Source: Candidatus Moraniibacteriota bacterium (GTDB lineage: Bacteria > Patescibacteriota > Minisyncoccia > Moranbacterales > UBA1568). From it: 32,734 bases of DNA. The stretch covers positions 76,699 to 109,432 of the forward strand of contig JAAXXG010000003.1 of assembly GCA_013334575.1 (NCBI GenBank). Direction: 5' to 3'. How positions within the stretch are numbered: position 1 is the stretch's first letter; every line of letters starts with the position of its first letter. This document shows, one piece after another, positions 22,201 to 24,821 of this stretch. The notes below the pieces were generated by a model that was given only the letters and a program-made list of their open reading frames with translations, ran no database searches and was not told where the DNA came from. A program made the translations under genes and the position numbers.

Positions 22201-22740
22201 TTAACCGGTCGGTTTCGATTTTCGTCTCGACGGCCGCTCCGATCTTTCTCCGCATCCGTGGCAATTGCCAGTCTCAGCTTGATCGAGGAGGAGGAGTAGT
22301 TTCCGGAAGAATGCCCGGTGTGCCGCGAGTTCCCGTTCCGAGAACAGTCCGGACAGGCGGAGTCCCGCGTCGCGGGCGAGCCGTTCGGTTTCCCGGAGCT
22401 TCCGTCTTCCTGCGGGCGTGATCCGAAAAGGGGCGACCCGTCGGTCGGTTCCGGACGGGGCCGGTATCCGTCGTACGAACCCCTTACGAGCGAGCATACC
22501 GAGGCGTTGGCTCAGGTTCGACTTCGTGCCGCCGAGCGTCTCGAGGATCCGCGTCGACGGAGTCGGTCCGGCGTGGTCGAGGAGCGCGAGAATTCGGAAG
22601 GCGGTCAGGGAGAGTCCGGACGGTTCGAAGATATGCCGGTCGGAAAGCCGTTCGAAACTTGCGGCGGCGTGAAGAATCGGCGGAACGATGTCGTCCGTCG
22701 GGAACCCCTCCGTCGTGTCGTTTCCGAATGCTCTTCCCAT
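22201..22740 (-). CDS. MarR-family transcriptional regulator of the efflux operon
   Basis: A 179-aa winged-helix repressor. The N-terminal dimer helix leads to LTAFRILALLDHAGPTPSTR, the recognition helix region LGGTKSNLSQRLGMLARKG and the wing VRRIPAPSGTDRRVAPFRIT, the standard MarR layout with the Asp-Arg-Arg wing motif. The C-terminal helix runs to a Cys/Arg-rich tail (GNCHGCGERSERPSRRKS), longer than in most MarR proteins. It is first in the operon, 30 bp before the adaptor. An 18-bp palindrome lies over its own -10 box, so autorepression relieved by a pump substrate is the natural model. Confidence 0.9.
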   Translation of the reverse strand: MGRAFGNDTTEGFPTDDIVPPILHAAASFERLSDRHIFEPSGLSLTAFRILALLDHAGPTPSTRILETLGGTKSNLSQRLGMLARKGFVRRIPAPSGTDRRVAPFRITPAGRRKLRETERLARDAGLRLSGLFSERELAAHRAFFRKLLLLLDQAETGNCHGCGERSERPSRRKSKPTG

Positions 22741-22858: not shown

Positions 22859-22887
22859 TTGACGAAAAGCTTTTTTTGTACTATAAT
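22859..22887 (+). promoter_or_regulatory. Strong promoter of the first secreted paralogue
   Basis: TTGACG (22859-22864), a 17-bp spacer with seven T, and a consensus TATAAT (22882-22887). The spacer AAAAGC-T7-GTAC parallels that of the second paralogue. Confidence 0.9.
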
Positions 22888-22893
22888 GGAAAG

Positions 22894-23010
22894 TCCGTGA
22901 AGGAAGCGGTCTTGCAGGATCGGATGCTTCCCAGCACGGGCTTAACAATATCTTTTCCAACATCACTTCGTCGGGCCGGTGCGGCCGAAGGGGTACAACG
23001 GTATGTCATC
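22894..23010 (+). promoter_or_regulatory. Conserved structured 5' leader, copy 1
   Basis: About 117 nt between the predicted transcript start and the ATG at 23011. GGAAGC (22902-22907), part of a purine-rich Shine-Dalgarno-like tract, pairs with GCTTCC (22926-22931). A linear conserved block CTTAACAAT...CTTTTC..AACA (22941-22963) follows, then a GC-rich hairpin whose arms are TCGG (22971-22974) and CCGA (to 22988). The second paralogue has the same blocks in the same order. The frame read through the block differs between the copies, so conservation is at RNA or DNA level. It does not match a riboswitch class I recognise. Confidence 0.6.
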
Positions 23011-23745
23011 ATGAAAAGGAGTCTGTATTCTCTGGCCGCGGTAGCCGCATTCATCGTCGTGAGTCTTCTGAGTATCGTTCCGGCATTCGCCGCCACGGTT
23101 ACCGGCCGACTCGATCTCGGCGCGAAGAACATGTATTCCTCCGATTCGATCGGGGACGTGTTCTATCGCGATCACCTGATTCCTCAGGGGTCGTTGACGG
23201 TTACGCACGAGCCGTCCGGCGTATACGTCCAACTCTGGACGTCAATGTCGCTTGACCGCGGGCGGAACTTCGGGAAGGAAACCGACTTCACTGTCGGAAT
23301 CACCCGTAAGGTAGGCGGCTTCGTCTTCGGCGGCGGGTACTCGTACTGGGCGCTTGTCGGAGTCGATCTTCACGACCTGTTCGCGAGCGTCGACTTCCCA
23401 AGCGTGCTCGGCGCGACTCCGTACCTCTGTGTCGACCAGGCTCTTCCTACCGACGCGGATGTGCTCGAGGGAGGCGTCCTGTACAAGGCCGGTCTCAAGG
23501 GGACGGTCGATGTCGCGGGGCAGCCCTTCGCGCTCGATGCGCATCTCGGCGGCCATGACGGAGCGTTCGGGAAAAATCCGGCGCATCCCGCTATCGGCAA
23601 GGTGGGCGTCTCGACTACGATCGGAGTGATCGGCAATCTCTCGGTAACGCCGTCGGTTGCCTACCAGTTTCCGATCAGCGGTGACTGTGGCAACGAGGTG
23701 TTCTATGGGGCGAATCTCTCGTTCCCATTTGACATCGTGAAGTAA
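23011..23745 (+). CDS. Secreted, probably beta-barrel-like protein, paralogue 1
   Basis: A 244-aa protein with a clear Sec signal peptide (MKRSLYSLAAVAAFIVVSLL... cut after PAFA). The mature part is an alternation of short amphipathic strands, Gly- and aromatic-rich (GGFVFGGGYSYWALVGVDLH), ending in hydrophobic residues and K, as in small outer-membrane beta-barrels of the TorF/porin type. A conserved centre shared with the next gene reads DLHDLFASVDFP, GGVLYKAG, VAGQPF, GGHDGAFG. The start at 23011 is chosen for the signal peptide and because the frame upstream runs through the promoter. No Shine-Dalgarno sequence is present near the ATG. The function is unknown. Confidence 0.82.
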   Translation: MKRSLYSLAAVAAFIVVSLLSIVPAFAATVTGRLDLGAKNMYSSDSIGDVFYRDHLIPQGSLTVTHEPSGVYVQLWTSMSLDRGRNFGKETDFTVGITRKVGGFVFGGGYSYWALVGVDLHDLFASVDFPSVLGATPYLCVDQALPTDADVLEGGVLYKAGLKGTVDVAGQPFALDAHLGGHDGAFGKNPAHPAIGKVGVSTTIGVIGNLSVTPSVAYQFPISGDCGNEVFYGANLSFPFDIVK

Positions 23746-23775
23746 AAAAGTCCGTCAAACGACGGCAGGAGAAAG

Positions 23776-23812
23776 GCAGGTGTGTCGCAACGACCCCTGC
23801 TTTTTTCGTTTC
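23776..23812 (+). terminator. Intrinsic terminator of paralogue 1 (identical to that of paralogue 2)
   Basis: GCAGG...CCTGC outer stem with an inner GTCG-CAA-CGAC, then six T. All 37 nt are repeated exactly at 24785-24821. Confidence 0.85.
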
Positions 23813-23879
23813 TATCATCTGTCGAATCATGGTCTCGTTGTCATTCCCCCCGTCTTCTTTTCTCGTAATATGGTGGAAG

Positions 23880-23908
23880 TTGACAAAAATAGTTTTTTGT
23901 ATTAAAAT
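23880..23908 (+). promoter_or_regulatory. Strong promoter of the second secreted paralogue
   Basis: TTGACA (23880-23885), a 17-bp spacer with six T, and TAAAAT (23903-23908). It is similar in spacer sequence to the promoter at 22859. Confidence 0.9.
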
Positions 23909-23913
23909 AGATT

Positions 23914-24027
23914 GTCGGTAAAGGAGGCGCTTCTACCTGGTTTGAGGCCTTCCTGACAGGAAGTCTTAACAATCTTTTCAACACTTCGTCGGGCTGGTGC
24001 TGGCCGATGAGCAACCATTGTCAAATC
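23914..24027 (+). promoter_or_regulatory. Conserved structured 5' leader, copy 2
   Basis: Equivalent of the leader at 22894. GGAGGC (23923-23928) pairs with GCCTTC (23947-23952). Compared with copy 1, one A-T pair has become G-C by change on both sides, and one G-C has become G-U. The linear block CTTAACAAT..CTTTTC.AACA (23965-23983) and the final hairpin with TCGG/CCGA arms (23989-24007) follow. No start codon lies at a usable distance after the AAGGAGG tract, so that tract may serve regulation rather than initiation. Confidence 0.6.
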
Positions 24028-24753
24028 ATGAGAAAAGCCATCGTGTTTCTGGTAGCGGTGTTTTTCACCGCTTTCTCCGCTGTCAATGTGTGGGCGGAAG
24101 GGGTGTCTATCCGTTCGGAGATCGGCGTATATAGCGGGTATGCTTCGAGTTCAACCGGGAAGATGAAATACGATGGGTGGTTGCCTCAGCAGCAGCTGTC
24201 TGTCGTTTACGAGGTCGGCGACTGGAAGTTCCGTGGGAAACTGTGGAACTCAGCGTCGCTCAACGGGGTATCAGACAAGGGTGACGAGACGGACTATGGG
24301 TTCGACATTACAAAAAAAGTCGGTGACTTTTCGGCTAATGTCGGCTATGTCTACCTCGATATGACCGGTCCCGATCTGCATGATCTGTTTGTTGTCGTAG
24401 ATTTTCCGAAGGTGGCCGGGGTCGTGACGCCGTTTGTCATGATAGAAGACGTGCTGTCTGCGCAGCCGAAAGTGATGGAAGGCGGCGTCCTCTACAAAGT
24501 CGGTGCAAAGGCCGTCGCATCGGTTGCTGGACAACCGTTCAATCTGAAGGGCTACTTCGGAGGTCACGACGGAGCGTTTGGGAGCGAACCGGAGCATCCG
24601 AGCATCTTTCGTGTCGATGTCGGCACGACGGTGAAGGTGGGCGACGGCCTGACACTGACTCCGGAAGTCCGGCGGCAGTGGACGTTGAATGGTCTTAATC
24701 GGGATAAGACGTTCTATTGCTTCAACATTGGCTATGTTCTGCCTATCAAGTAG
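24028..24753 (+). CDS. Secreted, probably beta-barrel-like protein, paralogue 2
   Basis: A 241-aa homologue of the preceding gene. Signal peptide MRKAIVFLVAVFFTAFSAV with a likely cut after VWA. Shared blocks include LPQQQLSVVYE against LIPQGSLTVTHE, ETDYGFDITKKVGDF against ETDFTVGITRKVGGF, DLHDLFVVVDFP, GGVLYKVGAK, VAGQPFNL and GGHDGAFGSEPEHPSI. The mature chain is again strand-rich and ends in LPIK. Codon use is less GC-biased than in paralogue 1, so the duplication is old or the genes have different histories. An in-frame ATG at 24007 lies inside the conserved leader hairpin and is less likely to be the start. Confidence 0.82.
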   Translation: MRKAIVFLVAVFFTAFSAVNVWAEGVSIRSEIGVYSGYASSSTGKMKYDGWLPQQQLSVVYEVGDWKFRGKLWNSASLNGVSDKGDETDYGFDITKKVGDFSANVGYVYLDMTGPDLHDLFVVVDFPKVAGVVTPFVMIEDVLSAQPKVMEGGVLYKVGAKAVASVAGQPFNLKGYFGGHDGAFGSEPEHPSIFRVDVGTTVKVGDGLTLTPEVRRQWTLNGLNRDKTFYCFNIGYVLPIK

Positions 24754-24784
24754 GCAGGTTGGTTCATCGAGTGAAATGAAAGAA

Positions 24785-24821
24785 GCAGGTGTGTCGCAAC
24801 GACCCCTGCTTTTTTCGTTTC
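24785..24821 (+). terminator. Intrinsic terminator of paralogue 2
   Basis: The same 37-nt sequence as at 23776-23812, with T run at 24810-24815. Confidence 0.85.

Follow-up and report, generated by a model that had tools for sequence, protein, structure and literature searches.

Two tandem genes for secreted proteins that carry the same leader raise the question of why such a leader is kept and what it might do. The genes lie in a window of 32,734 nt, the whole stretch of DNA that was analysed, from the genome of a Candidatus Moraniibacteriota bacterium. Positions 22859-24817 of the window hold two complete tandem units, each with a strong sigma70-type promoter, a leader of ~115 nt, a gene for a secreted protein of ~240 aa and an intrinsic terminator. 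In both leaders a 5'-terminal stem-loop is followed by a single-stranded linker rich in U and CAACA, and this by a hairpin (P3) close upstream of the start codon. Such promoters are real in this genome, as the pattern TTGACA-N16-18-TANNNT occurs 104 times compared with 6 times for the reversed control. The parts of the two units are as follows.

22859..22887, + strand: sigma70-type promoter of copy 1, TTGACG...TATAAT, from the sequence
22895..22939, + strand: 5'-terminal stem-loop of copy 1, P1 enclosing P2, from the MFE fold, the z of -3.6 for the first 60 nt and P1 pairing in relatives with other sequences (stems picked by eye)
22895-22899 with 22935-22939, + strand: P1 of copy 1, CCGTG/CACGG
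22902-22907 with 22926-22931, + strand: P2 of copy 1, GGAAGC/GCTTCC
22941..22966, + strand: unpaired linker of copy 1, CTTAACAATATCTTTTCCAACATCAC, from the sequence, with look-alike stretches in unrelated leaders
22968..22991, + strand: P3 hairpin of copy 1, TCGTCGG...CCGAAGG with one G-A mismatch, from pair counts across leaders
23011..23745, + strand: CDS of copy 1, predicted secreted beta-barrel of 244 aa
23776..23808, + strand: intrinsic terminator of copy 1, identical to that of copy 2, from the sequence
23880..23908, + strand: promoter of copy 2, TTGACA...TAAAAT, from the sequence
23913..23958, + strand: 5'-terminal stem-loop of copy 2, P1 (TGTC/GACA) enclosing P2
23923-23928 with 23947-23952, + strand: P2 of copy 2, GGAGGC/GCCTTC
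23965..23983, + strand: unpaired linker of copy 2, CTTAACAATCTTTTCAACA, from the sequence; compare the leader of the unrelated L154 gene
23986..24010, + strand: P3 hairpin of copy 2, TCGTCGG...CCGATGA, then GCAA, from covariance model R1 (47 bits) and covariation
24028..24753, + strand: CDS of copy 2, predicted beta-barrel of 241 aa, without a Shine-Dalgarno before the start codon
24785..24817, + strand: intrinsic terminator of copy 2, from the sequence

The original prediction had described in both leaders the stem that we call P2, with one compensatory A-T to G-C change between the copies, a CTTAACAAT...CTTTTC...AACA block and a TCGG...GGTGC...CCGA hairpin. All three were found where it had placed them, the block at 22941-22964 and 23965-23983 and the hairpin inside 22968-22991 and 23986-24010; P2 of copy 2 also differs by one change from G-C to G-U, and the outer stem P1 around the first hairpin had been overlooked. 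The reading frame through the conserved block does differ between the copies, as had been stated, and a conserved leader peptide was dropped as a candidate for that reason.

When promoter and leader 1 were compared by blastn with the 1.13-Mb genome, copy 2 was the only significant match besides the query itself (E=1.2e-9; next best 0.17). Simple inheritance, i.e., joint duplication of the whole unit from promoter to terminator, with gene conversion now and then and no function of the leader itself, would agree with the promoter and the 33-nt identical terminator that the two units also share. However, the two genes agree at only 36% of their codon third positions, which are near saturation, and linker plus P3 are still 87% identical, which suggests that selection on the leader RNA is likely and recent duplication is not the cause. 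Inheritance alone is further weakened by pairs kept through both-side changes across genera, described below, and we consider it improbable. The folding energy of the full leader was no better than that of shuffled sequences (z about 0), and the sole stretch to stand out was the first 60 nt (z of -3.6 for copy 1, -1.0 for copy 2).

The porin-like protein family was found in 20 of the 131 genomes of the order, and a separate genome-contig scan with the copy 2 protein as query gave no match. Upstream of porin-like genes the plan of the leader, i.e., a strong promoter, a stem-loop soon after the -10 box, a U-rich/ACAA linker, P3 and the start codon, recurs in the genus (G001, G003, G004 and G005) and in another family of the order (G076, G077, G078 and G079), where the sequence changes and the architecture is kept. 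A second G004 gene (L018) has P3 with a different 5' part, G080 and G086 keep the 5' stem-loop with an ordinary Shine-Dalgarno in place of P3, and L015, L016 and several f8 genomes carry leaders of an ordinary kind. In G003, whose UvrB on contig C74 is 85% identical to that of the window, an unrelated DMT-like gene directly upstream has its own leader copy with stems changed and re-paired (P3 TCCGCCG/CGGCGGA); a homologue search for this gene in the genus added one incomplete copy without useful leader data.

Across 12 leaders, one of which precedes an unrelated gene, the seven positions of P3 are paired in 80 of 84 cells, and five of the seven show compensatory both-side changes with three to five standard pair types. 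These counts were made without the MAFFT alignment, which misplaced some 3' strands. Permuting whole 3' strands among the leaders gave a mean of 63.8 paired cells and a maximum of 78 in 20,000 trials, compared with the real 80, in a test that ignores relatedness and uses registers picked by eye, as they were also for P1. In the six-sequence training alignment the true register had 94% paired cells and slid registers 20-56%, and in most members the register is anchored by flanking CTTCGTC and GAGCAA. Because phylogeny does not enter into these tests and the stems were picked by eye, the evidence for P3 is good, yet it is not an R-scape result. The P3 loop varies, being GC-UUUU-GC in some members, GUUCUCGGAU in G003b and long in G004 and G005. 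P1 is paired in every listed leader, always just after the -10 box and with unrelated stem sequences; since the P1 stems were selected to pair, architecture alone is claimed for it.

The new homologues, which retain stem pairs, and the covariation thus back the predicted conserved, structured 5' leader of surface-protein genes outside Rfam, and the prediction withstood the refuting conditions that had been set for it. Indeed, no known riboswitch class had been recognised in it, and Rfam covariance models at gathering and loose thresholds gave no match at either leader. A structured, conserved leader without an Rfam match could be a metabolite-binding riboswitch of a new class, but this is very improbable because the families have no conserved unpaired core in common, the compared leaders sharing just stems and a U/A linker. 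Moreover, the AAGGA/UCCUU part is lost in G076-G078, inspection found no U-run after the leader hairpin, no terminator and no anti-Shine-Dalgarno partner, most starts have no adjoining Shine-Dalgarno, and the gene context is one of surface proteins, not metabolism. A resemblance to guanidine-II, an ACGG/ACGA loop inside P2 of G001 and G005, was rejected as it concerns one hairpin only, does not occur in the other leaders and has no Rfam score.

Strong matches to R1, a covariance model built from six training sequences including copy 2, are confined to the order, and a search of 384 genomes drawn evenly from the class gave nothing beyond the window genome's own copy. The extra weak order-wide matches L055-L057 had no suitable promoter or gene context and were discarded. 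As a small and rough model, R1 fails on divergent members (copy 1, G004 and G005 among them), and its silence outside the order is therefore weak evidence of absence.

P2 had been proposed to capture a Shine-Dalgarno-like purine tract, a proposal that fares poorly. Relatives G076-G078 lack the AAGGA tract, and where it occurs ~90-105 nt separate it from the start codon; it is therefore unlikely to act as the gene's Shine-Dalgarno, and P2 is probably no translation switch. The same tract could instead open a short upstream reading frame through which the leader acts by translational coupling or attenuation, and short frames do follow AAGGA in G001 and G005 (GTG AAC ATC CTT ACC TGA) and in G004 (about 21 codons). 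This is very improbable, however, as neither the frames nor their lengths and residues are conserved, none follows the tract in G003b and the leader has no terminator.

The leader had also been treated as one unitary element, and here the comparison of relatives leads to a different view, in which the leader comprises two separate modules, the 5' stem-loop and P3, inherited differently. Between G001 and G005, identity is 93.6% across 1,444 nt that stop inside the linker just before P3; beyond it P3 and the CDS are of a different lineage, and the similarity returns downstream. The alignment of window copy 2 with G001 starts immediately upstream of P3 and leaves out the 5' stem-loop. The 5' stem-loop is thus inherited together with the promoter, P3 together with the CDS. 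The marR-porin-uvrB locus of these two genomes (L011 in G001, L013 in G005) is a natural cassette swap, with near-identical flanks, promoter and 5' leader half and with a different P3 and surface-protein gene, and it looks like surface-protein diversification. In the window a MarR-family regulator gene at 22201-22740 on the minus strand is divergent from the porin genes; as the G001/G005 DNA similarity upstream of the porin genes spans the marR region, MarR may be a conserved neighbour and a possible regulator.

The single-stranded block resembles the leaders of unrelated genes, since U-tracts plus CAAC/AACAA runs also follow the promoters of such genes in the window's genome, and the leader of L154, an unrelated membrane-protein gene, starts GCCTGTGCTTAACAATTTTTCAACC. 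Over all strong promoters the UUUAACAA-type linker motif was modestly enriched, with an EM log-likelihood of 55 compared with 34-47 in six shuffles run with fewer seeds, and the fixed regex counts used patterns picked after the data were seen; as a genome-wide element it was dropped, the enrichment being modest only. Another leader of this genome, that of L123, is like the 5' module, with a long outer stem GCTTCGTTC/GAGCGAGGC around AAAGG/CCTTT and then a TTTTAATAAACC linker. In many of the 89 leaders behind strong promoters of this genome, a crude criterion recognises no Shine-Dalgarno.

We give about even odds (0.5) to the reading that this is a modular structured 5' UTR of Moranbacterial porin-like genes, which combines an ompA/aprE-like stabiliser with a start-proximal hairpin acting on translation where a Shine-Dalgarno is missing. 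Strong promoters would transcribe the porin-like surface-protein genes with this 5' UTR, and the stem-loop, next to the predicted transcription start, would block 5'-end-dependent decay by RNase J and so stabilise the mRNA. The U-rich/CAACA single-stranded linker would probably be a ribosome landing stretch, and P3, in the Shine-Dalgarno position, would set or regulate (help or gate) initiation at the nearby start codon. P1 starts within a few bases of the transcription start that we infer from the -10 box. The host genome has an RNase J match over the cut-off, i.e., the 5'-end-sensitive nuclease that a 5' stabiliser calls for, and RNase E/G, searched for in the same genome, is absent. Roadblocks at the 5' end stabilise mRNA because RNase J acts as a 5' exonuclease (PMC3997798), and the mRNAs of ompA and aprE owe stability to 5' stem-loops and leaders (PMC7509114). 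With RNase J in the genome, these precedents make a stabilising effect most likely for the stem-loop at the start of the porin mRNA, and of the two guesses of the original prediction, a new cis-regulatory RNA or an mRNA stability element, the latter appears the better. Over 89 strong promoters of the window's genome 5'-proximal hairpins showed no excess over downstream controls, and 5'-hairpin stabilisation is thus no visible general strategy in this genome.

It is possible, though doubtful, that with P3 the order has a cis-regulatory RNA of a new class, which replaces the Shine-Dalgarno and controls translation of a variable surface-protein cassette passed between species while promoter and 5' stabiliser stay constant. 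Alternatively, a protein or small RNA could bind P3 and control translation through it (e.g., in feedback or envelope stress), the 5' stem-loop being secondary. P3 covaries, adjoins the start codon and travels with the CDS, and an ordinary Shine-Dalgarno takes its place in G080 and G086, but its loop sequence is not conserved across members and no candidate binder is known, which leaves this account unlikely.

The proteins under this leader are predicted to be beta-barrels, Gcw_chp/TorF-like and porin-like, and the two of the window are 40% identical. Pfam PF09694 (Gcw_chp), which we take to comprise TorF-type putative porins, matched two of nine homologues (best 3.9e-6) and neither of the window's own two proteins. 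An AlphaFold model of the porin-like protein, built from only two sequences with a mean pLDDT of 67, is rich in strands; Foldseek matched it to outer membrane porins and autotransporter barrels. Predicted porin-like, Gcw_chp-like barrels with signal peptides and about 12 strands (window 23011-24753, L011-L016 and L032-L048) occur in Moranbacteria and relatives. Moranbacteria belong to a CPR/Patescibacteria lineage usually held to be without an outer membrane, and the leader draws attention to predicted outer-membrane-type barrels in it. Post-transcriptional control in Patescibacteria is little known, and a review of the group mentions riboswitches and untranslated regions solely as possible engineering tools (PMC11665869); the leader of porin-like genes is a concrete, testable element with comparative support.

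As compared to known systems, the window leaders have a structured leader in common with the riboswitches and cis-regulatory families of Rfam, but no family matches them, and literature searches found no published RNA motif in Parcubacteria and none in porin leaders of candidate phyla. The aprE leader of B. subtilis and polypurine 5' stabilisers likewise have a 5' stem-loop or a run of purines close to the 5' end, in a host that has RNase J (PMC3997798, PMC7509114). For aprE, however, ribosome binding is also needed for stability, whereas in the window leaders the purine tract is paired and in the second family it is absent. The E. coli ompA leader has a 5'-terminal stem-loop, then single-stranded sequence and a second hairpin. 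It is of similar size and precedes a beta-barrel surface protein. Its role is that of a stabiliser (PMC7509114). Unlike E. coli, the window's organism has no RNase E/G, and most members of the present group have no Shine-Dalgarno before the start; the likeness to ompA is one of plan, with no sequence relation implied.
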